Below, in pieces: positions 1,164-44,645 of a DNA stretch of 64,000 nt; position 1 is the first letter of the stretch, and every line of letters starts with the position of its first letter. Location: contig NZ_CP151636.1 in the NCBI RefSeq assembly GCF_038397745.1, positions 2,108,001 to 2,172,000 of the forward strand, in the 5' to 3' direction. Source of the stretch: Microbacterium sp. LWH11-1.2 (GTDB taxonomy: Bacteria; Actinomycetota; Actinomycetes; Actinomycetales; Microbacteriaceae). A model generated the notes under the pieces. It worked only from the letters and a program-made list of their open reading frames with translations. It ran no database searches and was not told the origin of the DNA. Both the position numbers and the translations under genes were made by a program.

Positions 1164-3962
1164 TCAGCTCTCGACGAGCGCGCGGACCTCGGCGGCCTCG
1201 CCGTGCCGTCCGAGCGCCTCGAGGACATCGCCGAGCTCGAGCGCGGCCACCTGACGGAGCGGAGGGATCTCGGCGCCGTGCTCGAGGGCACTGCGGTAGA
1301 CCGGCACCGCGTCGGCGGGTCGCTCGTTCCCGGCGAGAACGCGGGCCGCGAACAGCTCAGAGCCGCTGGCCGCCCCGCTGTCGCCGAGCCCTGCGAAGCC
1401 GTCGGCCGCCGTGAGTGCCGCCGCGACGGCCTCGTCGACCCTGCCGAGCTCGGCGAGAGCCCGTCCGCGGGAGTCGGTGACATCGGCCAGCAGCCAGCCC
1501 GCGTCGTGCTCCTCTGCCAGGGCCGCGACCTCGTCGAAGAGCCCGAAGGCGCGCTGGTCGCCGCGCCCGCCGTAGGCCTGGCCGAGGCTGTGCAGCACCT
1601 CGGCGCGGGCCCCGGCGGCATCCTCCGCCTGCCGCACGATCTCGGCCGCCGACTCGAGGAGGGCGATCGCGTCGTCGTTCTCGTCGAAGCGGGCGAGGAT
1701 CTTGGCCTGCTCCGTCATCGCCATGGCCTGGTCGGCGTGCTCCTCGGCCTCGGCGAACAGCTCGGACGCGTAGCCGTGCGCGCCCACCGCCTGGCCGAAC
1801 TCGCCTGCCGCGCTCAGCGAACGCGCCAGCATCGACGCGGTCATGGCGCGCGAACCCGGGGGCACCTCGGCCTGCTCCTCCTGCTGGAGCACCTCGCCGA
1901 ACAGCTCGGCGGCCTCCACGGCGTCGCCGGCGCGCAGCATGGCGCGCGCCATCCGGAAGTTCACGCCGGTCGAATCCCCTCCCGATTCCCCGCCCATGCG
2001 CGCCGCGAGCCGATAGCGCGACACGGCCTTCTCCGGCTCGTCGGCGTCTTCCCAGAGCGCGCCGGCGAGCAGGTGCGCCTCGGCCAGCGCGCGGGTCGCG
2101 CCGAGCTCGGCGAGCAGCCGGCAGGATTCATCCGCGTCGGTGGCGCCATCGACATAGGCGCTGCTGCCCCCGCGCACGCGCGCCCTGGTCTGGTGTGCCT
2201 GCGCCCGATGGCCGACGCTCACGTCGTCCTGCGCCAGGAAGCGATCGAGCAGCGCGGATGCCGCTTCGAGGTCGCCCTTGCTGAGCAGGGCCGAGATCGC
2301 CACCAGGGTGGTCGTGTTGGACAGGCGCGTGTCCTCCGCCTCGGCGAACGCCCGCGCCGCCACCTCGGCGTGGTCGAGCGCGGCATCCGCTTCATCGGCC
2401 TGCAGATGCAGGGACGCGCGGCTGATCGCGAGATCGCCTCGCGACCATGCGGGGAGCGCGGCGGACGCGGCGATCTCCTCTTCGAGTCCGGCGGCCGCCT
2501 CGGGGGTGTTCAGCCCGAAGGTGGCGAGGCCCAGGCGCTCCTCCAGGTCGGCCTGCTCGTCCCGGCCGGCGGCGCGCAGGGCCGCGATCCGCTGCGGCAG
2601 CAGCTCGGCGGCCTCATCGGCGCGGTCGAGCGCGATCAGGATGCCGAGCCGCATGGACTGGAGCTGCGCGAGCTTCGCGGGGTCGTCGACCTCCAGTGCG
2701 CGGGGCAGGGCTTCGAGCATCTCGTGCTCCGCGCCGAACTGCGCGAGCTGCATCGCGCGCTCGTACCAGCCGTCCGCGTCGACCGGCGTGACCGACGGCG
2801 CAGGAGCAGTGAACGCGTCCGAGCGGATCGGCACGTCGTGCTTCTCGGTCTCGAGCGCGCGCATCCGCGCCAGGGCGCGCGCATGACCGTCGGTCCCGTC
2901 GCGGTGGTCGAACTCGGCGCCGATCCGCTCGGCGGCGGCCCAGGCGGCAGCGGCGAGCTCCGCGGCGGTCCACGCCCCGTCGTGCGCACCGAAGAACGGG
3001 ACGAGCCCGGCGGAGTCGGCGCCGCGGACGGGAGTCTCGCCGTGCCCGACGGCGGTCACCCGGTCCAGCGCGACCGCGAAGGCGGCGAGGGCGGCGAAGT
3101 GCGCGTCGACGTTCAGTCCGTCGTGCGCCAGCCACCCGATGTGCCGCTCGACCATCGCCAGAGCCCTTGCCTCGTTGCCGGTGACCGCGGCGAAGACGAT
3201 GTTGCCTGCGACGATGCGCAGATTGTCGGGGTTGTCCTTCGCCAGCCGGTAGCTGCGCAGGTGCGCCGTCTTCGCGTCGTCGGGGCGTCCCGCGCGCAGA
3301 TAGGGCAGCAGCACACGCGACAGGGCGTGCTCCGGCTCCTCTCCGCAGGAGAAGCCGCCCTCGATCATCTCCTCGACGAGGCGGATGGCATCGGCATCGC
3401 GGTCGGTCTCGGCGAAGAATCCGGCGAACTGGCTGCGCCCGCACGCGTCGCAGTGGCTGTGCTCGTCGCGAGGGGTCGCCTCGAGCTGCACCCGCAGCGC
3501 CTCCGCATCGTCGAAGCGTCCGGCATCCCAGGCGTCCTCGAAGCGCGCCGTGAGCACACCGCTCAGCCCGAGGCCCGCGGTGCGGTAGTGCGACTCCATG
3601 TCGTCGAGGACGGCGGCGATCTGCTCCTGCGAGAAGGCCGGAGAGGAGCGCAGGGCCGAGGCCATCCACTTGAACTGCCACATCAGGTCGGCGCCGCCGT
3701 TGTCGATGTCGGAGGGGAAGCGCTGCGGGTCGGCGTCGTGGTGCGCCAGGCACCACGCGAACGAGTTCAGCATGACGTCGGTGGCGCCGCCCATGTTGGC
3801 AGATGCCGTCTGCCGCATCCGTGCGTCGTACTCGAGCCGCTCGTCGCCGAGCTCGACGGCCAGGGCGACGGCTTCGGCGACGAGCGCCTGCTCCGCCGGA
3901 CCCCACGGGGTGCGGTCGATCTCCTCGATGAGCTGCTGGAAGCGCTTCTTCGGACGTGCCAT
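1164..3962 (-). CDS. Large TPR-like helical repeat protein
   Basis: A 932-residue protein without signal peptide or obvious membrane segments. It is very rich in Ala, Glu, Asp and Leu in helical pairs that recur about every 34-40 residues (for example AEAHLLAGALWEDADEPEKA and ARSLSAAGEFGQAVGAHGYA), the pattern of tetratricopeptide repeats. It has no visible catalytic motif, apart from a CDACGRS sequence near residue 190 that is a single CxxC pair. The ATG is preceded by GAAAGGG at good spacing. It lies 24 bases downstream of the HSP90-like gene on the same strand, so the two are probably co-transcribed. TPR proteins are common HSP90 co-chaperones, so a chaperone partner or a scaffold is a reasonable inference, but no specific function can be read from the sequence. 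Confidence 0.7.
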   Translation of the reverse strand: MARPKKRFQQLIEEIDRTPWGPAEQALVAEAVALAVELGDERLEYDARMRQTASANMGGATDVMLNSFAWCLAHHDADPQRFPSDIDNGGADLMWQFKWMASALRSSPAFSQEQIAAVLDDMESHYRTAGLGLSGVLTARFEDAWDAGRFDDAEALRVQLEATPRDEHSHCDACGRSQFAGFFAETDRDADAIRLVEEMIEGGFSCGEEPEHALSRVLLPYLRAGRPDDAKTAHLRSYRLAKDNPDNLRIVAGNIVFAAVTGNEARALAMVERHIGWLAHDGLNVDAHFAALAAFAVALDRVTAVGHGETPVRGADSAGLVPFFGAHDGAWTAAELAAAAWAAAERIGAEFDHRDGTDGHARALARMRALETEKHDVPIRSDAFTAPAPSVTPVDADGWYERAMQLAQFGAEHEMLEALPRALEVDDPAKLAQLQSMRLGILIALDRADEAAELLPQRIAALRAAGRDEQADLEERLGLATFGLNTPEAAAGLEEEIAASAALPAWSRGDLAISRASLHLQADEADAALDHAEVAARAFAEAEDTRLSNTTTLVAISALLSKGDLEAASALLDRFLAQDDVSVGHRAQAHQTRARVRGGSSAYVDGATDADESCRLLAELGATRALAEAHLLAGALWEDADEPEKAVSRYRLAARMGGESGGDSTGVNFRMARAMLRAGDAVEAAELFGEVLQQEEQAEVPPGSRAMTASMLARSLSAAGEFGQAVGAHGYASELFAEAEEHADQAMAMTEQAKILARFDENDDAIALLESAAEIVRQAEDAAGARAEVLHSLGQAYGGRGDQRAFGLFDEVAALAEEHDAGWLLADVTDSRGRALAELGRVDEAVAAALTAADGFAGLGDSGAASGSELFAARVLAGNERPADAVPVYRSALEHGAEIPPLRQVAALELGDVLEALGRHGEAAEVRALVES

Positions 3963-3986
3963 GGACGTGCCCTTTCGGTGGAGATG

Positions 3987-5810
3987 TCAGTGGGCGTCGC
4001 CGAAGGGGATCGAGTCCCCTTCCAGACCGGCCGAGAGCGAGACGAGGTCGGAGAGCGCGCTGGTCATCAACGCGCGGTCGGCGTCGCCGAGCGGATGATG
4101 ACCCGCCAGCAGCGCCTGGATGTAGAGGAGCTGGACGGTCCGGCCGAACACCGCCTCGTCCTGCACGCGGACGAGGGCGCGGACGACGCGGTTCGACCAG
4201 TTCAGGCAGAGCCGCGCACGGAGGTCGTCCTCGCGCGCCGTCGAGAGCGTCCGGTCGATGCGGTCGAGCACGCCGCCCCAGAGCGCCCCGGTCACGCCCT
4301 TGGTGCGTCCGCGGTCGATCGCCCTCAGCACCTCGGGGTCGGCGACGTAGAGCGCCGCGAGCTCGGGTCGGTCGATCGAGCGGACGACGACCGAGCAGTC
4401 GGATGCCGCGAGCACGGCGCCCGCTCGGGCTTCGAGGGCTACGGCGGCATCGCGGTCGTCGAGAGGCGGGGGGTCCAATCGGTCGAGCTCGCCCGTGACG
4501 TCGACCTGCTCGACCGAGACGTGCGGGTGCAGCTCGGGCAGCATCCGGATCAGGTCGGCGTCGTACAGGTAGCCGCCGTTGACGAGCACCTCGTCGGCGG
4601 GGGAGATCCCGGCCACCTGGCGGAACTCGTCGACGCTCTGCGCATAGCGGATGTGCGGGTACCGCTCGACGAGATCGCCGATGCGCATCGTGCCGTGCGT
4701 GGTCTCCACCGTCAGCCAGCGCGTGATGAAACGCGCGAGCTCCTCGTCGTGGCGGACGAGCGATTTGAGGCCGACCTCGTGCACGGCGACGAACTGCGCG
4801 AGACGGTGCGGCTCGCGCAGGCCGAGCTCCAGCACCCAGCGGCGGATGCCGGCGCCGAGCTGCTCGCGGACCCGCTCCAGTGCCGCATCCTCGACCAGCG
4901 ACTCCCGGCTCGCGGTGGGGGCGAGCCCGGTGGAGTCGACGACCGCGCGTACGAAGAACGCCCAGTCCGGGAGCACGTCGTCCACGCGCTCGGAGAGCAG
5001 CATCCGGCCGAGATACATCCGGGTCGCCTGGCGCGCGCCGGGCGGGGGAGCGTAGGGGAGCACGTAGGCGAGGCCGCGGGTTCCGGTCGCGGGCTCGGCG
5101 AGCTCGATCACGTCCAGCGGGGCGGCGCCGAGGAGGTCGCGCCCGTAGACGGCGGCGGCCTCGAGGTCGTCCGCCGGGTCGAGGAACGGCGCATCCCGGG
5201 TGATGTCGACGTCCCCGCCGGCCGCGTCGACGGTCACCCGCACAGGGAGGAACTCGCCGAAGGTCGTGGCCAGCTCGTGCACGGCCGCGGGGCGCAGAAG
5301 CTCGTCGGCGTCGAAGCGCGGCACGAGATGCACGCTGGTGCCGATGGGGAGCTCCTCGTCGATCTCGGCGACCTGGAAGGTGCCGTCGGCGCTGCCGGTC
5401 CACTCGACCGAGGCGCCGCCTCTGGCGCTCCGGGAGCGGATCACGATCGTGTCGGCGACCATGAAGCAGCTGAGCAGTCCGATCCCGAACTGGCCGAGGT
5501 AGTCGCTGCGGGGCAGGTCGAAGATGTCGCGCTTGGAGCTCCGACCGACGGTGGCGAGGAGATCGGCGACCTCGGACGCCGTCAGCCCGACGCCGTCGTC
5601 GCGCAGGACGAACTCGCCGGTCTCGGCTGTGAGGGGCGTGATCCGGATACGGCCGCCCCCGCCGTCCACCTCGCGACGCGCCGTGATGGCGTCGCGGGCG
5701 TTCTGCAGGAGTTCGCGCAGATACACGCGAGGACTGGAGTAGATGTGCCTGCTGAGCAGGTCGACGACTCCGCGCAGGTCCACCTGGAACTGCTGCACAT
5801 CAGCGCTCAC
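3987..5810 (-). CDS. HSP90-family (HtpG-like) ATPase
   Basis: A 607-residue GHKL-type ATPase related to HtpG. The N-terminal nucleotide-binding motifs are all present: YLRELLQNARDAITAR (N box), LRDDGVGLT (G1) and LGQFGIGLLSCFM (G2). The middle domain contains the conserved arginine region TASRESLVEDAA. The frame stays open upstream to 5924, and ATG codons exist there, but the best start is the GTG at 5810, because GGGAGG precedes it by 8 bases and the conserved HSP90 N terminus begins right after. It is shorter and more divergent than housekeeping HtpG, mostly toward the C-terminal dimerisation part. It is the first gene of a two-gene operon with a TPR-like protein. Members of this HSP90 family occur in many actinobacteria, but their client is unknown. 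Confidence 0.82.
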   Translation of the reverse strand: MSADVQQFQVDLRGVVDLLSRHIYSSPRVYLRELLQNARDAITARREVDGGGGRIRITPLTAETGEFVLRDDGVGLTASEVADLLATVGRSSKRDIFDLPRSDYLGQFGIGLLSCFMVADTIVIRSRSARGGASVEWTGSADGTFQVAEIDEELPIGTSVHLVPRFDADELLRPAAVHELATTFGEFLPVRVTVDAAGGDVDITRDAPFLDPADDLEAAAVYGRDLLGAAPLDVIELAEPATGTRGLAYVLPYAPPPGARQATRMYLGRMLLSERVDDVLPDWAFFVRAVVDSTGLAPTASRESLVEDAALERVREQLGAGIRRWVLELGLREPHRLAQFVAVHEVGLKSLVRHDEELARFITRWLTVETTHGTMRIGDLVERYPHIRYAQSVDEFRQVAGISPADEVLVNGGYLYDADLIRMLPELHPHVSVEQVDVTGELDRLDPPPLDDRDAAVALEARAGAVLAASDCSVVVRSIDRPELAALYVADPEVLRAIDRGRTKGVTGALWGGVLDRIDRTLSTAREDDLRARLCLNWSNRVVRALVRVQDEAVFGRTVQLLYIQALLAGHHPLGDADRALMTSALSDLVSLSAGLEGDSIPFGDAH

Positions 5811-5895
5811 CGGCGCTCCCTCCCACTGCATCCGCTCGCCGAGCCTAACAACAACACCGGGCTCTCCTCGGTTCGGCTTCCCTCGGAGGATGCCG

Positions 5896-5901
5896 TATGC
5901 T
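5896..5901 (+). promoter_or_regulatory. Possible -10 element of the tRNA-Trp/secE promoter
   Basis: TATGCT lies about 100 bases upstream of tRNA-Trp, with TTCGGC 16 bases upstream of it as a weak -35. It is the best sigma70-like match between the divergent HSP90-like gene and the tRNA. The assignment is by eye only. Confidence 0.3.
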
Positions 5902-5985
5902 GGGTGAGCAGTTGTTGTCTGCATTCTTTCGCCGTGCCTGGGATCTCCCGATCACAGTTCGGTGGCAGAGTGGGGAGAACACCCC

Positions 5986-10390: not shown

Positions 10391-10423
10391 AGGAATGCCC
10401 CCGCCTTCGGCGGGGGCATTCCT
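10391..10423 (+). terminator. rplA terminator
   Basis: AGGAATGCCCCCGCC and GGCGGGGGCATTCCT form a perfect 15-bp stem with a 3-base TTC loop, starting 18 bases after the rplA stop. It is one of the strongest hairpins in the window. No T-tract follows. Confidence 0.9.
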
Positions 10424-33867: not shown

Positions 33868-33923
33868 GGGGGACACTGTAGCGTTAACTGTGCAAGATCA
33901 TGCAACAACAGGAAGAAGTGCGG

Positions 33924-34643
33924 ATGCTGGGTGCGCAGCGCAAGGAACATCTCCTCGGACTCCTCGCCGCTGAGGGGCGTGTCGTCGCGAAGACGGCGGC
34001 GGCCGAGCTGGGAGTGTCCGAGGATTCGATCCGGCGAGATCTCCGCGAGCTCGCCGACGCGGGGCAGTGCATCCGCGTCTACGGCGGAGCGCTGCCCGTG
34101 CCGGCGGCCGACGCGCCCGTGGCCCAGCGTCTGGGTGTGGCGAGCGAGAGCAAGGAGCGGGTCGCCAGGGCGGCTGTCGCGTTGATCCGCCCGACGTCGA
34201 CGATCATCCTGGATGCCGGGACGACGACCTTGGCGATGGCGCGCATGCTTCCGCACGGTGCGAGCCTGACCGTGATCACTCCGAGTCCCGCCGTGGCGCT
34301 GGCGGCGCTGGAGCATTCGAGCGCTCGCGTGCTGATGGTCGGTGGGGACCTCAGCCGGCACTCGGCGGTGGCCGGCGGCGCTCTCGCCCAGGAGGCGATC
34401 GCCCGGCTCGCCGCCGACATCTTCTTCCTCGGCGTCACGGGGATCCACGAGACGCACGGCTTGACGACCGGCGAACTCGACGATGCGGTGACGAAGCGGG
34501 CTCTCGCCGTTCGCAGCGCAGAGGTCTTCGTGCTCGGCAGCGCAGAGAAGATCGGCGCGGTGTCGCGCTTCCCGGTGCTCGGGATCGACGAGATCTCCGG
34601 GGTGATCGTCGACCCGCAGGGCCCGGGATTCCGCGCCGTCTGA
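33924..34643 (+). CDS. DeoR/GlpR-family transcriptional regulator
   Basis: A 239-residue regulator. The N-terminal DeoR helix-turn-helix is LGAQRKEHLLGLLAAEGRVVAKTAAAELGVSEDSIRRDLRELADAGQCIRVYGGALPV. The effector domain is DeoR C-terminal/phosphosugar-binding type: STIILDAGTTTLAMARML and FLGVTGIHETHGLTTGELDDAVTKRAL. ATG 33924 gives the family's usual start and follows AGGAAG; an in-frame ATG at 33900 lacks one. It may control the divergent DUF4406 gene. It lies just upstream of the daptide cluster but is not clearly part of it. Confidence 0.85.
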   Translation: MLGAQRKEHLLGLLAAEGRVVAKTAAAELGVSEDSIRRDLRELADAGQCIRVYGGALPVPAADAPVAQRLGVASESKERVARAAVALIRPTSTIILDAGTTTLAMARMLPHGASLTVITPSPAVALAALEHSSARVLMVGGDLSRHSAVAGGALAQEAIARLAADIFFLGVTGIHETHGLTTGELDDAVTKRALAVRSAEVFVLGSAEKIGAVSRFPVLGIDEISGVIVDPQGPGFRAV

Positions 34644-34815
34644 GGCTGATTCAACGCTCACTTTTCCTCCACAGCGGGGGCACGGCTGAAATATTGCACT
34701 CGGTGGAGTAATCCGTTTACCCTCAGGTGAGGACATAAGGTCCTCGCATGGGGATGCAAAAGAGTCGACCGGATGATGTCTTCACTGCCTCCTCGGTGCA
34801 TCTTCTGGGGGACGA
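34644..34815 (+). promoter_or_regulatory. Upstream region of the daptide cluster with a possible promoter
   Basis: The gap before the first small ORF is visibly more AT-rich than its surroundings. TTGCAC (34694-34699) and TTACCC (34717-34722) with a 17-base spacer are a possible sigma70-type promoter. A short interrupted ORF in another frame (34773-35009) has no ribosome site and is not called. No operator palindrome stands out. Confidence 0.35.
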
Positions 34816-35019
34816 ATGGACATGGGATCAGCGTGGTCGACGGGGCGTCGTCAACGTACCGCGACAGCTGTCGCGCCGGACCTGAACGGCCGACGGCCGG
34901 TGGTCGACTTCGTCACAGCGCCGGTACCACCGCAGGATCCTCCGGTCGACTCCTTCCCGACGGCGCACTCCGACAGGTCGGCCGGAGCACACCGCGAGGA
35001 GGCGTCTGATGCGAAGTGA
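34816..35019 (+). CDS. Small ORF at the head of the daptide operon, function unknown
   Basis: A 67-residue ORF with a good ribosome site (TGGGGGACGA before the ATG). Its stop codon overlaps the start of the recognition-protein gene (ATGCGAAGTGA), which would couple their translation. The product is Pro-, Arg- and Asp-rich without hydrophobic helix or known motif (ends in HREEASDAK). It does not end in Thr and lacks the precursor leader motif, so it is not a fourth precursor. It may be a small accessory protein, or only a translated leader that feeds ribosomes to the next gene. Confidence 0.45.
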   Translation: MDMGSAWSTGRRQRTATAVAPDLNGRRPVVDFVTAPVPPQDPPVDSFPTAHSDRSAGAHREEASDAK

Positions 35020-36058
35020 CGAAAGGGTGACTGACCTGGAAGTCGTCGGGGCACGGGCGCTTCGCGAATGGATCACCGGACGCTGTGAGGAGTACTCGCA
35101 GGTAATCCTCGTGGAGCGCGGAGCCGCCGCAGCGGACATCGACGACGTGGCCGGCCGCGATGATGTGGTCCTTCTGCCGATGGCCGGCGAACCGTACAAC
35201 GGACGGGCCCGCGCCGTTCGCTACAGCGGAGCGTTGGACGAGATCGGCGACGAGCTGTTCTTCGGAGAGCGTTCGGTCGAGCTTCAGGACTACGTCTCCG
35301 CGGCGTTCGTCCAGATTCTCGGACCGACGGCGGTGTGCCTCGTCGACCTGCCCGGCTGGTACGCCTTCCTGGCTGATGCGGAAATCGCTCGGGAGACCGG
35401 GGTCTTTCCGTCTGCGTTGATCGATCCTCGCGTGATCCTCGGGGATCGCACTGCCCTGGCGAAGCCCGATGAGCGGGCGGCTCCGAGCGCCCTCAGAGTG
35501 CGCTCGGACGGCAGAGTCAGCGTCGGTCTCCGGGGTGAGGTCATCGGCAGCGTCGACGATCTTCGTGCCCTGCTCTCCGTCCCTCTGCCTCGCATCGCGG
35601 CGCTGGGAGGCATCGCGCCGCGCGATGAGCTCACGGCCGACCTGACCAGCCGCGGCTGGATCGGACGCTACCTCGACGCGACGGATCTCATCAAAATGCT
35701 CCAGCTCGGAAACGGGGGCGCCAAGATGGCGGGCTTCGGCTGGGAGCTCGTCGAGGACGGACGCGCCGACGCCGAACCGCTGATGTCGGATCCGTTCCTG
35801 CTGGAGACCAGCGACGGCTTCCTTCTCGCCGACACCGGAACCCTGCGCCGTCAGCTGCTCTCGCCGGTCACGGCCACGGTGGTCGCCATCCTCCAGACCT
35901 CGAGCGCGCCCGAGGTCGCGGCAGAGCGCATCACGCGACTGCTGGGTACGACAGCCTCTGACGCGAGCAGGCTGTGCATCGATGCCGTCGGCGCGCTCGA
36001 CGTCCACTTCGGCAGGCGAGCCGACTCGTCGATTCCGACATCGGGAACGCGCGGGTGA
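35009..36058 (+). CDS. mpaB: Daptide RiPP recognition protein (MpaB-like)
   Basis: A 349-residue soluble protein starting at ATG behind a strong GAGGAGG. It has no catalytic motif that I recognise. The last ~90 residues (PFLLETSDGFLLADTGTLRRQLLSPVTATVVAIL, then APEVAAERITRLLG) look like a PqqD-type winged-helix RiPP recognition element. By position, as first large gene of a cluster with aminotransferase, dehydrogenase, methyltransferase and Thr-ending precursors, it corresponds to MpaB of the daptide clusters. It would bind the precursor leader and present the C-terminal Thr to the modifying enzymes. Its stop overlaps the next start as GTGA. Confidence 0.8.
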   Translation: MRSDERVTDLEVVGARALREWITGRCEEYSQVILVERGAAAADIDDVAGRDDVVLLPMAGEPYNGRARAVRYSGALDEIGDELFFGERSVELQDYVSAAFVQILGPTAVCLVDLPGWYAFLADAEIARETGVFPSALIDPRVILGDRTALAKPDERAAPSALRVRSDGRVSVGLRGEVIGSVDDLRALLSVPLPRIAALGGIAPRDELTADLTSRGWIGRYLDATDLIKMLQLGNGGAKMAGFGWELVEDGRADAEPLMSDPFLLETSDGFLLADTGTLRRQLLSPVTATVVAILQTSSAPEVAAERITRLLGTTASDASRLCIDAVGALDVHFGRRADSSIPTSGTRG

Positions 36059-37314
36059 GCGCCCTGCATGCGCTCTGGGCCTCGATGCTCCCAGCCGACA
36101 CGACCTTCACGCAAGATCGAGTCGCTGTCGGCGCCGCTGGGCATCGGATCGACTTCGCCGACGGCTCCTCGCGCCTCTGCGCGACGAGCGGACTATGGAA
36201 CGTTCCGCTCGGTTTCGGCAATCCGGCGGTCGCCGATGCCGTGAGCAGGGCCGCCCACGACGCGTCCTACCTGACTCTGTTCCGCGCGTCGCATCAGTAC
36301 GCGGAGGCCGCCGCTGAGGCACTCGTGGAGCTCGCGAACCCGACGAGGTACAGCCGCGTCATCTTCTCCACGTCGGGCGGAGCGGCGAATGACGCCGCGA
36401 TGAAGCTGGCGCGTCAGTACTGGGCGCAGAAAGCGGCTCGATCCCGCTCGCTCGTCGTGGGTCTGAAGGGCAGCTATCACGGCACGATGTACGGCAGCCA
36501 TGCGCTGAGCGGCGACGATCTCCTTCAATCCGCCTACGCCGTCGACCGTAGATCGGTGAGACATGTCGCTCACTCCGATGACGGAGAGGAACTCGAAACG
36601 CTGCTGAAGCGTGAGGGGGCCAGGGTCGCGTCTGTCGTCGTCGAGCCGGTCCTGGGCAGCGGAGCGCACGCGCTGTCCGATGCGTTCGTGGATCGTCTGC
36701 TGGCTCTACGAGAGGAGTACGGGTTCCTGATCGTCGCGGATGAGGTCGCCACGGGTTTCGGTCGCACAGGCACGATGCTCGCCACCGATGTGTGGGCCGC
36801 CGCTCCCGACGTTCTCCTGCTCTCGAAGGCGTTGACGAACGGCGCCATGGGCGCCGCGGCGCTCCTGGTGGGTTCTCGTGTCGCATCCGAGTTCGCGCGC
36901 GGCGGGTGGACCTTCGTCCACGGTGAGACGCAGGCGGGAACGCCGGCGTGCGCCGCGGCCATCATCGCGGTGATCGAGGAACTGCGCCGCATCGACGTGC
37001 AGTCGACCGCGCGGGCGCTCGCGACGGGCCTGTGGGAGATGGCGACGTCGTTGAAGGCCGAGGGTCTGGTCGCTGAGGTGACGGGCCGCGGTTGCTTCGT
37101 GGGACTCGGGCTTCGCAACCCCGATGACAGCCTCCTCTCGGCGAATGAGGTCCTTCGAGTCGTCTCCGCCATCGCAGAGAGCGGCGTTCTGGTTCAGCCC
37201 GGGCCCAGTTCCGTCGAGCTGATCCCGGCGTACGGATTCACAGCCGCGGAGCTCCTCCAGACGGATACGGCTGTGCGCGCGGGGCTGGCGCGCGCAGCGG
37301 AGTCGGCAGCATGA
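36055..37314 (+). CDS. mpaD: Daptide biosynthesis class III aminotransferase (MpaD-like)
   Basis: A 419-residue PLP enzyme of aminotransferase class III. Motifs are VIFSTSGGAANDAAMKLARQYW (the phosphate-binding SGGAAND region), YHGTMYGSHALSG, IVADEVATGFGRTG (PLP-ring Asp) and LLLSKALTNGAMG with the Schiff-base lysine at residue 258. The GTG at 36055 overlaps the upstream stop; an earlier ATG would extend far into mpaB. In daptides this type of enzyme converts the C-terminal ketone left by oxidative decarboxylation of Thr into an amine, giving the second amino terminus. The gene overlaps mpaC by 4 bases. Confidence 0.88.
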   Translation: MSALHALWASMLPADTTFTQDRVAVGAAGHRIDFADGSSRLCATSGLWNVPLGFGNPAVADAVSRAAHDASYLTLFRASHQYAEAAAEALVELANPTRYSRVIFSTSGGAANDAAMKLARQYWAQKAARSRSLVVGLKGSYHGTMYGSHALSGDDLLQSAYAVDRRSVRHVAHSDDGEELETLLKREGARVASVVVEPVLGSGAHALSDAFVDRLLALREEYGFLIVADEVATGFGRTGTMLATDVWAAAPDVLLLSKALTNGAMGAAALLVGSRVASEFARGGWTFVHGETQAGTPACAAAIIAVIEELRRIDVQSTARALATGLWEMATSLKAEGLVAEVTGRGCFVGLGLRNPDDSLLSANEVLRVVSAIAESGVLVQPGPSSVELIPAYGFTAAELLQTDTAVRAGLARAAESAA

Positions 37315-38495
37315 CCCCCGAGTTCACGGGTCGGGTTCCGACGCTCTGGCACGGGCGAGGGGTCGCGCGTCAGGTGACGAGACGCCTGACCGCCGGGCGT
37401 GAGACCCTCGTGATCGCAGATTCCGCGATCACGGTCCCCGTCCTGATCGCCGGCTCGGCGAGGATGGTGAGGCTGGACGCGCGCTCGATCGACGTCACCA
37501 CTGTCGTCACGATCGCGCAGGAGATCGTACGTCGGCCACCGAGCATCATCGTGGCGATCGGTGGAGGCAGCATCCTCGACGCCACCAAGATCGCCGCTCT
37601 GGCGCTCGCCGGGGGGCGCGTCTTCGATTATGCGGTCGGGCACGCGTCGAGGTTCGCGCTGACACTGCTGCCCGATGCGCCACCTCCCATCGAGATCGTC
37701 GCCGTGCCGACGACCATCGGCACGTCGTCGGAGACGAACAGCGTCGGCATCCTCAGGAACGACAGCGGCTACCGGCTCATCGTCGGGCGCCTCCTGCGAC
37801 CGCGCCACGCCATCATCGATCCGGACAATCTGAGCTCTCTCACGCGTGCCGCAGTGAGAGAGGGGGCGATCGAGGCATTCCTCCGTCTGGCCGGAGTGTC
37901 GACGAGCGAGCGGCGCAGCACCAGGGCGAAAGGCGACGCTGTCCTTCTCGCCCGGGCGCTTCTCGAGACGGCCTCGTACGACGAGGGCTCCGCTGCGGGA
38001 CGGCTGCGTCTCGCCCGATTGAGCGCGGCCACGCAGCGCAGCGCCGCACTCCGTGGCGACGACCCGTTCGGCGCCCGTCACTGGTACCTGGCGAACGAGG
38101 TCGCCTTCGCGCTCGGGGCTCGCAAGATGGTCGCCACGGCGGCGGTCATCGCCGCGGTATGGCGTCGAATCTGCGCAGGCGACTCCCGATGGGGAGACCG
38201 GGAGAGTCTTGAGGACTTCTGGGAGAGGGGCACGAGCGGGTCGGGACTGCCGCGCGAACCGGTGGCCGGAATCGCATCCCTCGTCGACCAGTGGGAGATC
38301 CCGCTTCCGCCGACTCCGACCGCGGACGTCCTCAGCCGCATCTCCTCCGCCACAGAGAAGTCATGGGGGTCTCGCCAGCCGATGCTTCGCGATCTCGCGT
38401 CAGACGACTTCCGCGATGTGCTCCGCGATTCCCGCTGGAGTGCTCAGCCGGTCGGCAACGCATGCCGACCTTCGGAACCACTTCGGAGGAGGTGA
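37311..38495 (+). CDS. mpaC: Daptide biosynthesis dehydrogenase of the iron-ADH fold (MpaC-like)
   Basis: A 394-residue protein of the iron-containing alcohol dehydrogenase superfamily, with the dinucleotide motif GGGSILD at 84-90 and the preceding RRPPSIIVAI strand. In daptide clusters this enzyme is responsible for oxidation of the C-terminal Thr side chain with loss of CO2. Unusually, all metal ligands known from FucO-type enzymes appear replaced: the Asp and His of the DALTHAIE motif correspond to Ala181 and Gly185 (REGAIEAF), and the two later His to Asn262 and Thr276 (ANEVAFALGARKMVATA). So a metal-independent mechanism, or a different ligand set, is likely. It ends 5 bases before the first precursor gene. 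Confidence 0.85.
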   Translation: MTPEFTGRVPTLWHGRGVARQVTRRLTAGRETLVIADSAITVPVLIAGSARMVRLDARSIDVTTVVTIAQEIVRRPPSIIVAIGGGSILDATKIAALALAGGRVFDYAVGHASRFALTLLPDAPPPIEIVAVPTTIGTSSETNSVGILRNDSGYRLIVGRLLRPRHAIIDPDNLSSLTRAAVREGAIEAFLRLAGVSTSERRSTRAKGDAVLLARALLETASYDEGSAAGRLRLARLSAATQRSAALRGDDPFGARHWYLANEVAFALGARKMVATAAVIAAVWRRICAGDSRWGDRESLEDFWERGTSGSGLPREPVAGIASLVDQWEIPLPPTPTADVLSRISSATEKSWGSRQPMLRDLASDDFRDVLRDSRWSAQPVGNACRPSEPLRRR

Positions 38496-38500
38496 ATTGA

Positions 38501-38635
38501 ATGAACAGCAACGTTGAAATGCAGATCCATTTCCAGGAACTGGACGAGATGGAGGCCCCGAGCTGGGAGAGCTTCTACAAGGGCACGATCAGTGCGCTGG
38601 TTCTCATCGGCGCCGCCGCGGCCATCGCGACATGA
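38501..38635 (+). CDS. mpaA1: Daptide precursor peptide 1
   Basis: A 44-residue peptide behind an exceptionally strong ribosome site (GGAGGAGGTGA, overlapping the mpaC stop). Its leader holds the shared motif IHFQELDEMEAP at residues 9-20. The C-terminal core (about residue 21 on) is a hydrophobic helix-former (GTISALVLIGAAAAIAT) and ends in Thr44, the residue converted to the diamine in daptides. It shares the end GAAAAIAT/GGAAAIAT with precursor 3. Leader cleavage near Pro20 is likely but not shown by sequence. Confidence 0.92.
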   Translation: MNSNVEMQIHFQELDEMEAPSWESFYKGTISALVLIGAAAAIAT

Positions 38636-38675
38636 TCTCGGCGATCGAAGGATTCGAACGAGGAAAGGAATGAGC

Positions 38676-38801
38676 ATGCGAACTGCAGCACCGAAGCTCG
38701 AGTTCACGGAGCTCGAGGCCATGGAGGCGCTGAATGACACCGATGACTTCATGCGCGGCTTCGCCGTGGGCGTCATCATCGGGATTCTCGCTCTGACGTA
38801 G
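38676..38801 (+). CDS. mpaA2: Daptide precursor peptide 2
   Basis: A 41-residue peptide. An alternative in-frame ATG at 38670 would give 43 residues; 38676 is preferred because AAAGGA lies 6 bases upstream of it. The leader motif LEFTELEAMEA matches the other two precursors. The core (NDTDDFMRGFAVGVIIGILALT) is hydrophobic and ends in Thr. Its core is distinct from those of precursors 1 and 3, which suggests a multi-component product rather than a duplicate. Confidence 0.92.
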   Translation: MRTAAPKLEFTELEAMEALNDTDDFMRGFAVGVIIGILALT

Positions 38802-38837
38802 GAAGAGCATTCACAAGGTTGACCCAGGAGGTAGGAA

Positions 38838-38957
38838 TTGCAGACAGAGACGCTGGACTTCATCGAACTCGAACAGCTTGACGCACCTCTCGAATGGTGG
38901 GAGCACGCGAGCTACATCATCGCCATCATCGGCGGTGCCGCAGCGATCGCGACCTGA
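38838..38957 (+). CDS. mpaA3: Daptide precursor peptide 3 (TTG start)
   Basis: A 39-residue peptide starting at TTG, supported by AGGAGGT 5 bases upstream; there is no in-frame ATG or GTG that would keep the leader. The leader motif is LDFIELEQLDAP (residues 6-17), and the core LEWWEHASYIIAIIGGAAAIAT ends in Thr39. Its last residues match precursor 1. The rare start codon and small size explain why automated calling can miss it. Confidence 0.9.
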   Translation: MQTETLDFIELEQLDAPLEWWEHASYIIAIIGGAAAIAT

Positions 38958-38959
38958 AC

Positions 38960-38995
38960 ATCGGGTGCGGGCGCAACACCGCGCCCGCACCCGAT
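38960..38995 (+). terminator. Strong hairpin after the daptide precursor genes
   Basis: ATCGGGTGCGGGCGC and GCGCCCGCACCCGAT form a perfect 15-bp stem with an AACACC loop, starting 2 bases after the third precursor stop. It precedes mpaM by 26 bases. It probably causes partial termination or stabilises the 3' end of the upstream RNA, so that precursors are made in excess over the downstream enzymes. Confidence 0.85.
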
Positions 38996-39021
38996 CCTTC
39001 CCATTGAAAGGTGAGGTGTGC

Positions 39022-39849
39022 ATGTCACGACTGATTACCGATGCCATGGCGGCGCGACTCGACATGGCCGGTGCGGTCCCCAAGGAGCAGGACCTGTACG
39101 CGGGTACCGGCACCGACTTCTATGAACGGCTGGTCGGGCCCGACCGAGCAGAGATTCGAGAAGTGTTGGCGCTTGCGAGAAACTCCGCGGATCCGATTCT
39201 CGATATCGCGGCGGGTACCGGGAGATTGACCGTCCCGCTCGTGAGATCCGGACGACGGGTGACCGCGATCGATCTTTCCGACGACATGCTCCGCCACCTT
39301 CGACGCGCATTGCCCGACCACCCGATGCTGGATTGTGCTGTCGCGGACATGCGCGACTTCGCGTTGGCGGGTCGATTCGGGCTCATCATCATCGGTGCGA
39401 CGTCGATCACCCTGCTCGATCGCATAGGGAGATCGCGTCTCTACGCGAACGTGCGGCGCCACCTCGCGGCCGACGGCGTCTTCGCCTTCACCATCGCGGG
39501 AGGTATCTCTGCGGAGGGCCTCTCGGAGTCCAGAGACCAGGAGATCAGGGTGCCCGGGCCTGACGGAGACGAGATCTACCTCTTCTCCCAGCAGATCGAA
39601 GACGGCGGCGCGGTGCGCGTCGTCAACTGGGTGCGGGCCTCCGACGTGACGGAGGGCGGCGAAGTCACCGTCCTCACCAGCCGACTGCGGGTGCTCGACC
39701 ACGATATCCTCTCGCAGGAGCTCATCGAAGCCGGCTTCGACCCACCTGCCGTCTCTCCGGTGCGAACGCACCACGGAGCGGACATCCTCCTTCTCACGAC
39801 GTCGTGGGCGGGACCGCCGGAAGTGGTGGATGACGATGCCGCTCACTAG
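39022..39849 (+). CDS. mpaM: Daptide biosynthesis SAM methyltransferase (MpaM-like)
   Basis: A 275-residue class I methyltransferase. The SAM-binding motif I is ILDIAAGTGRLT at 59-70, followed by VTAIDLSDDMLRHLRR (acidic Asp for ribose) and FGLIIIGATSITLLD. ATG 39022 follows GGTGAGG. In daptides this enzyme dimethylates the new C-terminal amine made by the aminotransferase. It ends in overlap with mpaP. Confidence 0.9.
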   Translation: MSRLITDAMAARLDMAGAVPKEQDLYAGTGTDFYERLVGPDRAEIREVLALARNSADPILDIAAGTGRLTVPLVRSGRRVTAIDLSDDMLRHLRRALPDHPMLDCAVADMRDFALAGRFGLIIIGATSITLLDRIGRSRLYANVRRHLAADGVFAFTIAGGISAEGLSESRDQEIRVPGPDGDEIYLFSQQIEDGGAVRVVNWVRASDVTEGGEVTVLTSRLRVLDHDILSQELIEAGFDPPAVSPVRTHHGADILLLTTSWAGPPEVVDDDAAH

Positions 39850-41509
39850 GTTCACTCACCGACGGAACTCACCGGAAGCGGCCCCGCTCGCTGCCGACGC
39901 TCGGCCGCGGCTCGCTTCCGGTGTCGTCTTCGAGGGAGCGCCCGATGAAGCGGTGCGGATCACGGTGTTGCATGGAGTGCCGACGTCGAGGGTCTCCCGG
40001 ACGGTCGCCGAACTGTTGACAGCGATGGACGGCGAAACGGCGCTCCATGATCTGCACCAGCGCTTCGCCGCATCCGAGTCGCTGGAGAGCTTCCTCGACC
40101 TGGTCCGACGCTTCCGCGCCAACGGGCTCCTCGAAGGAGACACGAAGCTCCCGCCGGGCCGAATCACCTACCGGCCCCCGCTCACCCTGCAACTCGCGAC
40201 GCTTCGTGCGCCGGGCATCTTCGACCGCCTCGACCGATCGATGGTGCCGGTCTCCCGCCGGATGGCTCTGATAGCAGGTGCCGTGCTGTTCTGCCTGGGA
40301 CTGGTCGCCGCGATCCTGCAGGCGAGCGAGCTGCTGGACGTTCTGTCCGCGCCGGTACCGTTGCTCGGTCTCGTGAGTCTTATCGCGGCACTCTCGATCC
40401 TGACATTGCTCCACGAGAGCGCCCACGGACTCACGCTCACGAGGTTCGGCGGCAGCCCGCGCCGCGCGGGTTTCATGCTGTTCTACCTCACACCCGCGTT
40501 CTTCGTGGATGTCACTGACGGGTGGCGCCTCCCTGATCGTCGGCAACGTGTCGCGGTCGCGCTCGCGGGGCCTGCCGTGCATGCTGTCGTCGCCGCGATC
40601 GCGCTCGTCGTCGCGCTCATTCTCCCGCAGCCGTGGGTCAGGCAGACGCTCCTGCTCCTCGCGGTCGCGTGTGGGGGCATCGTCCTGGTCAACCTGATTC
40701 CGTTCGTGCGATTCGACGGGTACATCGCGCTCATGAGCGCGATGGACGAGCCGAACCTCAGAGATCGATCGATTCGGGACGGCGCGGACTTCCTGACTCG
40801 TCTCCTGTTCGGCGGACAGCGGACGAGCAGATGCCTGGAGAGGTGGTGGAGCGTGCCGTTCGGCCTGGCGAGCCTCATGGCTCCGGTCTTCCTGGTGCTG
40901 TTCGCGGTCTCACGCGCAGTTCGGGCGCTCGCCGGAGGAGGACCCGTCCTCGGCCTGCTCGTGGTGGCGCTGGAAGCGGTCGTGGTCCTCGTCGGCATCG
41001 GGATCGTCTTCCGGGCACTGCACCGCGTCCTGAGGTCGGGGGTCTCACGGCTCCGCTTCGTCTCGGTCAATGCCGCTCTCATCGCGAGCGTCGCGATCGC
41101 CGGAGCCCTCATCCCCGTGCCGATGACGGCCACGTACGGCTTCACCGCACACGGTGACCGCGTGCTCCTCGTGCACGCGGGCGACAGGGCTGGGGTGGAG
41201 GTGCCCGCCGGATCCCGTGTGGAGCTCATGAGCAGCGGTCTCCTCGTGAACGAGCAGATCGGCGCGGGAACGACCCGCCCCCGGCGACCCCAACCGACCG
41301 AGGTTCCGCTCGACGCTCTGGTTCCCGTGAGGGCGCACGTTGTGTCGGTCCCCGCGGTGATCGTCGCCGGGGTGGACGTGTCCGAGGGGAGTGGGAGCTT
41401 GCCTTCGACGGGACAGGCGCGCGTCGACCTCGGCGTGGGAAACCTGTGGCAGACGCTCTGGGTGACGGGCGTGATATGGCCGCTGTCGGCCCTTCAGATC
41501 GAGAACTAG
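39830..41509 (+). CDS. mpaP: Daptide cluster M50-type membrane metalloprotease (MpaP-like)
   Basis: A 559-residue membrane protein. The zinc-binding HESAH is at residues 195-199 inside a hydrophobic helix, and the third-ligand motif NLIPFVRFDG is at 288-297, as in site-2-protease-like M50 enzymes. Residues ~45-105 (SRVSRTVAELLTAMDGETALHDLHQRFAASE...) look like a PqqD-type winged helix, and the C terminus after the last helices (~410-559) is a soluble beta-rich domain. It probably removes the leader peptide during export. The ATG at 39830 (or 39835) lies within mpaM, so the genes overlap by about 20 bases. Confidence 0.85.
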   Translation: MTMPLTRFTHRRNSPEAAPLAADARPRLASGVVFEGAPDEAVRITVLHGVPTSRVSRTVAELLTAMDGETALHDLHQRFAASESLESFLDLVRRFRANGLLEGDTKLPPGRITYRPPLTLQLATLRAPGIFDRLDRSMVPVSRRMALIAGAVLFCLGLVAAILQASELLDVLSAPVPLLGLVSLIAALSILTLLHESAHGLTLTRFGGSPRRAGFMLFYLTPAFFVDVTDGWRLPDRRQRVAVALAGPAVHAVVAAIALVVALILPQPWVRQTLLLLAVACGGIVLVNLIPFVRFDGYIALMSAMDEPNLRDRSIRDGADFLTRLLFGGQRTSRCLERWWSVPFGLASLMAPVFLVLFAVSRAVRALAGGGPVLGLLVVALEAVVVLVGIGIVFRALHRVLRSGVSRLRFVSVNAALIASVAIAGALIPVPMTATYGFTAHGDRVLLVHAGDRAGVEVPAGSRVELMSSGLLVNEQIGAGTTRPRRPQPTEVPLDALVPVRAHVVSVPAVIVAGVDVSEGSGSLPSTGQARVDLGVGNLWQTLWVTGVIWPLSALQIEN

Positions 41510-41521
41510 GAGAGAGCGAAG

Positions 41522-42238
41522 ATGAACGACAACGCAATCGAAGTCCGAGGACTCACAAAGAGGTACGGCCAGCGGGTCGCAGTGGAGGAGCTGTCGTTCG
41601 TCGTGCCGCGCGGGTCGATCGTCGGCCTGCTGGGGCCAAACGGCGCCGGAAAGTCGACCACGCTGCGGACGATCGTCGGCCTGCTCAAGCCGACGATCGG
41701 CGACAGTCTGATCGACGGCGCGCCCTTCGCCGCACTCGAGAACCCCGCAGCGCACGTCGGTGTCCACATGGACGGGTTCGGTTTCGAAGCAGGCATCACG
41801 GCGCGCCGGCATCTGGAGATCACCCGGCTCGCGGCGGGCGTTCCTCGGGGCCGAGTCGATACGGTGCTGGAGGAGGTGGGACTGGCCGCGGATGCCCGTC
41901 GTCGCGTGAAGACGTTCTCGACGGGGATGGCGCAGCGCCTCGGTCTGGCCGCCGCTCTCATCGGTTCGCCTCGCACACTCGTTCTGGACGAGCCGGCGAA
42001 CGGGCTGGACCCCGACGGAATCCGCTGGCTGCGTAGATTCCTGCGCGGCTATGCCGCGCGCGGCGGCACCGTGCTGATCGCCAGCCATCAGCTCGCCGAG
42101 CTGGAACAGGTCGTGGATGAGGTCGTCGTCATCAAGCGACGTGCGCTCTTCGCCGGGCGACTGGAAGACCTCGTCACGAACGAATCCGACTCGCTGGAGA
42201 GCAAGTACTTCGATCTCGTCGAAGGAGTGTCGGCATGA
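41522..42238 (+). CDS. Daptide cluster ABC transporter ATP-binding protein
   Basis: A 238-residue ABC ATPase of the drug/bacteriocin-export type (CcmA/NatA-like). Walker A is GPNGAGKST at 38-46, the signature is FSTGMAQRLGLAAALIG, Walker B is TLVLDEPANGLDPDG and the switch is IASHQLAE. The signature is STGMA rather than LSGGQ, as in many lantibiotic-immunity ATPases. It would drive export of the mature daptide or protect the producer. It overlaps the next gene by 4 bases. Confidence 0.9.
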   Translation: MNDNAIEVRGLTKRYGQRVAVEELSFVVPRGSIVGLLGPNGAGKSTTLRTIVGLLKPTIGDSLIDGAPFAALENPAAHVGVHMDGFGFEAGITARRHLEITRLAAGVPRGRVDTVLEEVGLAADARRRVKTFSTGMAQRLGLAAALIGSPRTLVLDEPANGLDPDGIRWLRRFLRGYAARGGTVLIASHQLAELEQVVDEVVVIKRRALFAGRLEDLVTNESDSLESKYFDLVEGVSA

Positions 42239-42963
42239 GAGGTGTGATCCAGAGCGAGGTCCTGCGCTCCCTGAGCGGGCTCTCCATCCTGGCCGTCTAT
42301 CTTGTCGCGCTCCTCGTCCCGGCGTTCGTTCTCTTCTCCGACGGTTCGCGCTTGGCTCTCGCCGGGCTCGACTCCGGCGCGGCCACCGTTCGACTTCTGG
42401 AGCCGCTCGCCTGGTCCGGGATCTCCGCGGCGTTCGTGGGTGCGTACGGGGTCACACGTGAGTACTACTACGGCTCGATCGAAAGGACGCTCACCGGAGT
42501 CGGCTTCGGTCGCGCTTTCTCGGGAAAGCTGGTGGCGGGTGCCGCCATCGCCATCGTGTTGTCCGCGGGCATCTTCGTGATCTGGACAGCAGGTGTATCG
42601 CTCATCCTGGCCCAGAACGGGCTGGGGCTCACTCTCACACAGGATGCGTGGCGCGTGTACGCGGGTGCTCTGGTCGGTGCGATTCTCGGTGCACTCATCG
42701 GAGGAGCTGTCGGCTGGATCACCCGGAACTACTACGTCACCGCCGCCATCGTCCTGGTCTTCCCGATGGCGGTGGAATTCGCATTGCTGCGCACCGCACC
42801 CGAGGTGGCGAGGTTCTCGCCGGGGATGGCCATCGCCGCCTTGAGTGTGCCGGGACATCAGGCCCGCCTGCTCGAGTTCCTCCCGGCCCTCGGCGTCGGT
42901 GTCGCGTGGACCGCCGGGCTGGTCGCGATCGCGTGGGTCCGGGGCCGCAGGAGGGTGGGGTGA
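42235..42963 (+). CDS. Daptide cluster ABC transporter permease 1
   Basis: A 242-residue membrane protein of the ABC-2 type with about six hydrophobic helices. It starts RGVIQSEVLRSLSGLSILAVYLVALLVPAFVLF and ends with the basic VRGRRRVG. No domain beyond membrane spans is recognised. It forms a transporter with the preceding ATPase and the following permease. Its stop overlaps the next GTG as GTGA. Confidence 0.85.
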   Translation: MRGVIQSEVLRSLSGLSILAVYLVALLVPAFVLFSDGSRLALAGLDSGAATVRLLEPLAWSGISAAFVGAYGVTREYYYGSIERTLTGVGFGRAFSGKLVAGAAIAIVLSAGIFVIWTAGVSLILAQNGLGLTLTQDAWRVYAGALVGAILGALIGGAVGWITRNYYVTAAIVLVFPMAVEFALLRTAPEVARFSPGMAIAALSVPGHQARLLEFLPALGVGVAWTAGLVAIAWVRGRRRVG

Positions 42964-43694
42964 TCGGCCAGGCTCTTCGAGCCCACGTTCGCACGTTCGC
43001 GGGCGACATCGTCCTGCTGTGGGTCGTCGTGGCGGCGTTCGCGGTCTCGCTCTCCTTGGCGACCAGCATCCCGCCGGAACTCGCCGAGGCGCCGGCCGAC
43101 GTCCGGACAGCACTCACCGCGGCGTTCACCGCCGTGCTCGCGACGTACGGCGCAGTCCTCGCGTCCGTCTACGGTTCCTTCCGCTACACCCTTGATCGGC
43201 GCGACGGTGTGGTGGCCCAGCGTCTGATGCTGCAGCCCCGGTGGGTGACTCTCCTCGTCAGGGCGCCCGCTTCTGCCCTCGGCGGGGCGGTCGTGGCTCT
43301 TGCGGGACTCGCCGGCGGTCACGCGGCGTTGGCCTTCGCGATCGGCGGCATCGCGCTGGACGGGACAGCGGTCGGATCCACGCTCGCGCTCGGCGCCATC
43401 GCCGGGCTCTGGGGGATGGGGCTCGGAATCGTCGTACAGGCTCATCTCGTGGCTCTGTTCGCCGCGTCCCTGTCGATGGGTGCTGGGCTTCTGGTCGCGA
43501 TCTTATGGAAGGCCGGGGCCGTCTATCTGCCCCTTCTCGCGATGCTGAAGGCCCTTCGATTCGACGTCGCTGCCGTGGGGATCATGCCGGGAGAGAGTCT
43601 CGACGGCTCCACGGCCGTCCTCGTGACGGCCGGATGGGTGACGGCGGCTCTCCTGGCAGGGTGGCTCTCGTTCATGAACCGTGACGTGAGATGA
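42960..43694 (+). CDS. Daptide cluster ABC transporter permease 2
   Basis: A 244-residue membrane protein with about six hydrophobic helices, starting at GTG (IGQALRAHVRTFAGDIVLLWVVV) behind AGGAGGG. It is unlike the preceding permease in detail, so the transporter would be a heterodimer of two different membrane subunits with one ATPase, as in some bacteriocin immunity exporters. It ends the cluster; the next gene is a conserved housekeeping gene. Confidence 0.83.
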   Translation: MIGQALRAHVRTFAGDIVLLWVVVAAFAVSLSLATSIPPELAEAPADVRTALTAAFTAVLATYGAVLASVYGSFRYTLDRRDGVVAQRLMLQPRWVTLLVRAPASALGGAVVALAGLAGGHAALAFAIGGIALDGTAVGSTLALGAIAGLWGMGLGIVVQAHLVALFAASLSMGAGLLVAILWKAGAVYLPLLAMLKALRFDVAAVGIMPGESLDGSTAVLVTAGWVTAALLAGWLSFMNRDVR

Positions 43695-43754: not shown

Positions 43755-44645
43755 GTGGCAACCCCGAAGATCGTCCTGTTCTATGCCTTCACTCCCCTCG
43801 CCGACCCCGAGGCGATCCGCCTCTGGCAGCGCGACCTCGGCGAGGCACTCGGCCTGCGCGGGCGCCTCATCATCTCGAAGGACGGCGTGAACGGCACGCT
43901 CGGAGGCGATGTCCGTGCGCTGAAGAAGTGGTCGCGCTCCTTCCGCTCCTACGTCCCTTTCGCCGATGCCGACATCAAGTGGAGCGAGGGGACCGGGCTG
44001 GATGCCGAGGGACGCAGCCTCGACTTCCCCAAGCTCAGCGTCAAGGTGCGCGACGAGATCGTGTCTTTCGGCGCCCCAGGTGAACTGAAGGTCGACGAGC
44101 GCGGTGTGATCGGCGGAGGAACGAGGCTCACGCCCGAAGCGCTGCACGAGCTCGTGGACGAGCGTGGTGACGACGTCGTCTTCTTCGATGGGCGTAACGC
44201 CCTCGAGGCGCAGATCGGTCGCTTTCGAGGAGCGGTCGTTCCCGACACCGAGACCACGAGGGACTTCGTCGAGCTCCTCGACTCCGGCGCCTACGACGAT
44301 CTCAAGGGCAAGCCCGTCGTCACGTACTGCACCGGTGGCATCCGCTGCGAAGTGCTGTCCAGCCTGATGACGGCGCGCGGGTTCGGCGAGGTGTATCAGT
44401 TGGAAGGCGGGATCGTCCGCTACGGCGAGAAGTACGGCGACGACGGCCTGTGGGAGGGCTCGCTCTACGTCTTCGACAGGCGTGGCTCGATCGACTTCTC
44501 CGAGCACGCGCAGATCGTCGGCGAATGCGTCGGCTGCGGTGCGGCGACCAAGCGCACGGCCAACTGCCCCGATCTCTCCTGCCGAGCCCAGTTCGTCGTC
44601 TGCGCCGACTGCGAGTCCGTGCCCTGCGCCGCGCACGCGGCCTGA
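43755..44645 (+). CDS. tRNA uridine(34) hydroxylase / rhodanese-related sulfurtransferase (TrhO-like)
   Basis: A 296-residue protein starting at GTG. The N-terminal ferredoxin-like part ([45 protein letters not shown]) precedes a rhodanese domain with [14 protein letters not shown] and active Cys192 in [11 protein letters not shown]-terminal cysteine-rich tail ([29 protein letters not shown]) may bind zinc. This is the YceA/TrhO arrangement, whose members hydroxylate uridine 34 of tRNA in the cytoplasm. It is next to the daptide cluster but functionally unrelated. Confidence 0.9.

Follow-up and report, generated by a model that had tools for sequence, protein, structure and literature searches.

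The question raised by the window, as we call the whole stretch of 64,000 nucleotides analysed from a single 4.22 Mb Microbacterium chromosome, is whether it carries a complete daptide cluster, as the initial annotation had claimed, and what such a cluster would make. We have high confidence in the explanation as a whole, in which 35009-43694 encodes a daptide pathway predicted to convert the C-terminal Thr of three short peptides to a dimethyl-diamine, with likely cleavage of the leaders, likely export of the products and a proposed control through a stem-loop behind the last precursor gene.

Gene content and boundaries of the cluster

The cluster comprises eleven genes in the order B-D-C-A1-A2-A3-M-P-T1-T2-T3, all on the plus strand, between a DeoR-type regulator and a UPF0176/rhodanese gene (Table 1). 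Its junctions, taken from the ORF list and the coordinates, are overlapping or close, as had been described. All five of DapB, DapD, DapC, DapM and DapP score above the NCBIfam daptide equivalog cut-offs and A1, A2 and A3 each match their own Mpa model, which bears out the claim of a complete cluster; the class III aminotransferase, the alcohol-dehydrogenase-fold enzyme, the SAM methyltransferase, the M50 protease and the three peptides of 39-44 residues ending in Thr were all found as annotated. The features of the class are present in the form of a DUF-RRE DapB, a PF00465-type DapC that has lost its metal ligands, a class III DapD, a SAM N-methyltransferase DapM and an RRE-protease DapP, and the precursors show an ELExMEAP-type leader motif, an aliphatic core and a C-terminal Thr, though the leader of A2 ends in AMEAL instead of AMEAP. 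Judged by its sequence the cluster is an ordinary member of the known daptide class, with products predicted from the genes. The PqqD-like recognition protein of the initial annotation exists as domains but not as a separate gene: a PqqD-like (RRE) fold is predicted for the C-terminus of DapB, which had no match in the Pfam scan and is recognised by NF041823, and an RRE-like recognition fold for the N-terminus of DapP.

The start of the cluster had been placed at 34816, which belongs to an ORF of 67 codons. This ORF was rejected as a cluster gene and is probably spurious; it has no family match in the Pfam and NCBIfam scans, its codon-position GC of 0.71/0.62/0.72 carries no coding signal (DapB, 0.72/0.51/0.80), and in L050, the nearest other species, the frame is disrupted by a 28-base insertion. 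The cluster proper begins at 35009. For DapD the GTG at 36055 was chosen as the start, giving 419 residues. Upstream of DapB an AT-rich stretch at about 34685-34740 is well conserved with L050 and is a candidate operon promoter region. A consensus scan, which was limited to sigma-70-like promoters, found none of that type.

Table 1. Features of the daptide cluster and its flanks, with coordinates in the window.
Feature	Coordinates	Strand	Description	Family match or basis
DeoR-type regulator	33900-34643		flanking gene	
DapB	35009-36058	+	DUF-RRE fusion	NF041823 daptide_RRE, 269 bits (cut-off 150)
DapD	36055-37314	+	class III aminotransferase	NF041821 daptide_amino, 565 bits (cut-off 450); PF00202
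DapC	37311-38495	+	Fe-ADH fold	NF041822 daptide_DH, 326 bits (cut-off 300); PF00465
A1 precursor	38501-38635	+	44 aa	NF041805 daptide_Mpa1, 96.6 bits (cut-off 40)
A2 precursor	38670-38801	+	43 aa	NF041806 daptide_Mpa2, 95.0 bits (cut-off 40)
A3 precursor	38838-38957	+	39 aa, TTG start	NF041807 daptide_Mpa3, 86.7 bits (cut-off 40)
Stem-loop	38960-38995	+	15-bp perfect stem directly 3' of A3	inverted-repeat search
DapM	39022-39849	+	SAM methyltransferase	NF041820 daptide_MTase, 257 bits (cut-off 175)
DapP	39830-41509	+	N-terminal RRE and intramembrane M50 metalloprotease	NF041824 daptide_HExxH, 399 bits (cut-off 300)
T1	41522-42238	+	ABC transporter ATPase	PF00005
T2	42235-42963	+	putative ABC permease subunit	position and hydrophobic sequence
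T3	42960-43694	+	putative ABC permease subunit, GTG start	3' of T2 in relatives too
UPF0176/rhodanese gene	43755-44645		flanking gene	rhodanese by Pfam

The transporter and the chromosomal site

The three genes annotated as an ABC exporter are present and T1 is recognisable as the ATPase, but the permease part of that annotation has no family match behind it: T2 matched no Pfam or NCBIfam family above cut-off and T3 no NCBIfam family at E <= 0.1. It is quite possible, if somewhat short of an even chance, that T1-T3 serve mainly to protect the producer itself, as a LanFEG-type pump, and are not chiefly the exporter. The best NCBIfam match of T1 is the lantibiotic protection ATPase TIGR03740, at 186 bits and below the cut-off of 310, and T2 is matched at E < 1e-50 in three genomes that have no DapB match (G301, G136 and G160), with T1-T2-T3 standing alone before the rhodanese gene in G301. 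However, these are only 3 of 366 genomes and G136 also retains a DapP fragment, so such cases may be mere remnants, and a 2025 preprint predicts DapT1T2 to be an exporter. The orphan T1-T2-T3 of G301 occupies 3795-5964 of its locus (L127), within which no biosynthetic gene was matched. Of the 67 DapB-positive genomes of the genus, 66 have a T2 match (E <= 0.001); the exception is G246, whose orphan DapB lies at the site without the other ten genes.

At E <= 0.001, matches were found in the genus for DapB in 67, for DapP in 70 and for T2 in 73 of 366 genomes. Fifty of the 67 DapB genomes could be paired with a rhodanese gene, the other 17 having a match without a listed place or, in G122, DapB on another contig, and in 49 of these 50 the cluster precedes the rhodanese gene, which is on the DapB strand and no more than 11 kb from where DapB starts. 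Two genomes without DapB, G210 (L120) and G148 (L126), have an empty site, where 60-160 bases separate the DeoR gene from the rhodanese gene, while in four further genomes (L122-L125) most of the DeoR stretch is missing too. In G246 (L121) the site holds only DapB, at 1540-2544 on the minus strand of the locus and beside the rhodanese gene. Given the recurrent rhodanese neighbourhood together with the empty and partial sites, the cluster seems to have long held a fixed site on the chromosome and to have been lost repeatedly, rather than to have been freshly inserted.

The stem-loop behind the last precursor

Two bases past the stop codon of A3 a stem-loop begins. The fold of 38950-39010 has an energy of -35.2 kcal/mol (z -7.39), with none of 200 dinucleotide shuffles as stable. 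Stems also lie 3' of the last precursor in other Microbacterium loci, and their sequences are unrelated across three sub-types. Across 41 distinct sequences two-sided changes occur in 8 of the 15 pairs (shuffles, mean 4.6, with 0 of 500 as high), a comparison in which related sequences may exceed such shuffles even without structure, and 86.3% of alignment cells pair in the stem against at most 58% when it is slid; by number of pair types the stem does not stand out clearly from the shuffles (57 of 500 as high).

The position of the stem was compared by folding the 64 bases behind each gene, with a threshold of -25 kcal/mol. As scored, 55 of 58 loci reach this after A3, though this includes three mis-assigned type-3 loci, without which the figure is 54 of 55; the one miss is L090, at -24.9 kcal/mol and with a broken arm. 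The threshold is reached after A1 in 1/58 and after A2 in 4/53 loci, and at the other gene ends in 2 to 33 of 57 or 58, the end of T2 being the highest (33/58). The three type-3 Microbacterium loci have their stem behind the last precursor (-34.6 to -37.5 kcal/mol). Outside the genus, among loci from all 8 genomes of the order with a match, 7 of 8 have one, with energies between -33.8 and -54.4 kcal/mol, in a window of 64 bases whose start is at most 40 bases from the last precursor, while L114 has none at the expected place and its nearest strong stem some 80 bases off. None of these 11 loci (8 outside the genus and 3 type-3) has a strong stem behind the penultimate precursor (-9.9 to -23.2 kcal/mol). 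Other results weigh against the stem: with mononucleotide shuffles z <= -4 is reached in only 21/58 loci, and in no more than 35/58 does the stem behind A3 rank first in stability among the 44-base stretches of the cluster.

We propose that the stem-loop is a candidate leaky terminator, or else that it stabilises the precursor mRNA at its 3' end; in either case it would leave more precursor mRNA than mRNA of the downstream genes. It has no U tract, the standard terminator scan makes no call and no Rfam family was found at threshold. An ordinary full terminator, with the downstream genes on their own promoter, would fit the placing of the stem right behind the last precursor despite differing gene orders, as at the end of a transcript. 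However, we consider this rather unlikely, given the missing U tract and a spacer to DapM of 60-80 bases in most Microbacterium loci, which leaves little room for a promoter before DapM. A second perfect 15-bp stem-loop, with AGGAATGCCCCCGCC arms and a 3-base loop, lies 3' of another gene at 10391-10423 of the window; it also lacks a U tract and is perhaps a terminator. Neither "hairpin" nor "stem-loop" occurs in the main text of the daptide papers PMC10036551 and PMC12338566.

Predicted products, proposed pathway and relation to known systems

The predicted cores are SWESFYKGTISALVLIGAAAAIAT for A1, NDTDDFMRGFAVGVIIGILALT for A2 and LEWWEHASYIIAIIGGAAAIAT for A3, which as Dmp peptides, bearing the (S)-N2,N2-dimethyl-1,2-propanediamine C-terminus that characterises the class, would give [M+H]+ of 2423.37, 2321.27 and 2339.29, respectively. 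According to the parts of Ren et al. (2023; PMC10036551) that describe the products, daptides 1-3 of M. paraoxydans DSM 15019 have m/z 2363, 2232 and 2339. Among 60 loci from genomes of the genus four (L085, L086, L089 and L091), linked to M. paraoxydans by product mass only and referred to here as mpa-type, are predicted to yield Dmp peptides at 2363.31, 2232.28 and 2339.29. Since the A3 core of the window is identical to theirs, one of its predicted products should be daptide 3 itself, so that the products are more predictable than the initial annotation, which held that they could not be predicted in detail, had allowed.

The predicted mass for A2 is the least sure, because Leu and not the Pro typical of the class precedes the cleavage site. 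This Leu could mean that A2 is cut elsewhere or left uncut and that the cluster, though genuine, is silent or only partly productive; according to PMC10036551 cleavage of the mpa products takes place just after a conserved Pro, and replacing this residue, P(-1)A, made the first step less efficient, and the promoter scan above gave no sigma-70-like promoter. We think this unlikely, as that scan is blind to other promoter types, while Leu at -1 of A2 is common to many relatives and the A2 core is conserved, and therefore a form with Leu is maintained.

The trio of A1, A2 and A3, all ending in Thr, is complete in every one of 45 type-1 loci, namely the window together with L050-L094, L053 being left out. 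Over the same loci the cores are under purifying selection, with pN/pS of 0.30 for A1, 0.25 for A2 and 0.12 for A3, the most constrained, and the last 12 leader residues give 0.35, 0.18 and 0.26. The combinations named for raised haemolysis in the activity results of PMC10036551 (1+3, 2+3 and 1+2+3) all include daptide 3. From this we infer that the precursors form a fixed three-part set in which A3 is the common partner. A broader proposal, which we hold tentatively and at close to even chances, is that actinobacterial daptide operons share a strong stem-loop, free in sequence but always placed right behind the last precursor gene, that sets the ratio of precursor to enzyme mRNA, and that the Microbacterium precursors are an obligate membrane-active trio with A3 as shared partner.

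The steps of the pathway can be proposed if those of mpa and tfDap are taken as analogues. The leader would be held by the recognition domain of DapB, the predicted leader-binding partner of the oxidative decarboxylase. By the same analogy DapC is predicted to be that decarboxylase, of NAD type and without metal: with NAD it would oxidise and decarboxylate the last Thr to a ketone. Its metal ligands are replaced, with E188 and R192 in place of Asp and His in the alignment to 9knp, and by motif with N262 and T276 at what we take to be further ligand positions; all four residues are invariant in 15 sequences. DapD would then transaminate the ketone and DapM add two methyl groups to give the C-terminal dimethyl-diamine. 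DapP may bind the leader through its own recognition domain and cleave it, likely inside the membrane, and T1-T3 would export the product or protect the producer. A different C-terminus such as a YcaO-partnered imidazoline, a branch known from other daptide clusters, is very improbable here, given that the enzymes fit those of a plain mpa pathway and no YcaO was matched among the cluster proteins in the Pfam and NCBIfam scans.

In 17 of 46 type-1 loci (L051, L052, L054, L056, L060, L062, L063, L065, L066 and L068-L075) a second DapB-like gene, 31-35% identical to the DapB of the window, lies in tandem upstream of DapB (e.g. 2473-3414 in L052). The window has no such gene. Some of the copies match only to residue 221-281 and may lack the recognition domain. 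The sections consulted of the daptide papers do not mention the tandem gene, and "paralog" occurs 0 times in the 2023 main text (PMC10036551).

As a testable close relation of the founding daptide cluster, with a known compound as one of its predicted products and two cores besides, this cluster would be useful for studying the joint action of the three peptides. If the stem-loop acts as proposed, it would explain an excess of precursor over enzyme and would mark the ends of precursor arrays for genome mining. What is added here is the trio in all 45 close relatives, the rhodanese-adjacent site and the recurrence of the stem-loop.

Partial terminators lie behind precursor genes in lantibiotic operons. 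The daptide stem-loop is like them in standing behind a precursor gene and ahead of modification genes, but it stands behind a precursor array, is GC-rich, has no U tract and is found in several bacterial families. T1-T3 resemble the LanFEG protection transporters in being three consecutive genes and in the best match of T1, although T1 falls below the family cut-off and the permeases of the window have no family match. The window shares the logic of DapB, C, D, M and P with tfDap of Thermobifida fusca and saDap of Streptomyces azureus, as these are outlined in PMC12338566, and TfDapC has likewise lost its metal ligands; for further modifications both of those clusters carry YcaO, and tfDap also LanKC and a monooxygenase, none of which was found among the eleven cluster genes of the window.

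Among named loci the nearest relative is Microbacterium sp. TPD7012 (DapB 100%, other cluster genes 97.5-100% identical). In Microbacterium sp. Se63.02b (L049) the matches to DapB, DapC, DapP and T3 are each split into two separate pieces, as if the cluster or its sequence were damaged. The comparison with mpa proposed in the initial annotation was run against the four mpa-type loci, with which the window shares 51-84% protein identity and the same gene order. The annotation had named a lack of similarity to the mpa proteins as its refutation, and this was not observed. In the best tblastn segments the identities are B 51-53%, D 75-78%, C 63-66%, M 63-65% and P 56-59%, with A1 68-70%, A2 71-76%, A3 69-77% (first 26 residues), T1 83-84%, T2 72-74% and T3 59-64%. 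Compared with mpa as described in the sections of PMC10036551 on its genes and products, the window differs in its A1 and A2 cores, in their predicted masses and in the Leu at -1 of A2, while the five enzymes, the MpaA1/A2/A3-type precursors and the transporter genes are alike, and the gene order and the A3 core agree with those of the mpa-type loci.
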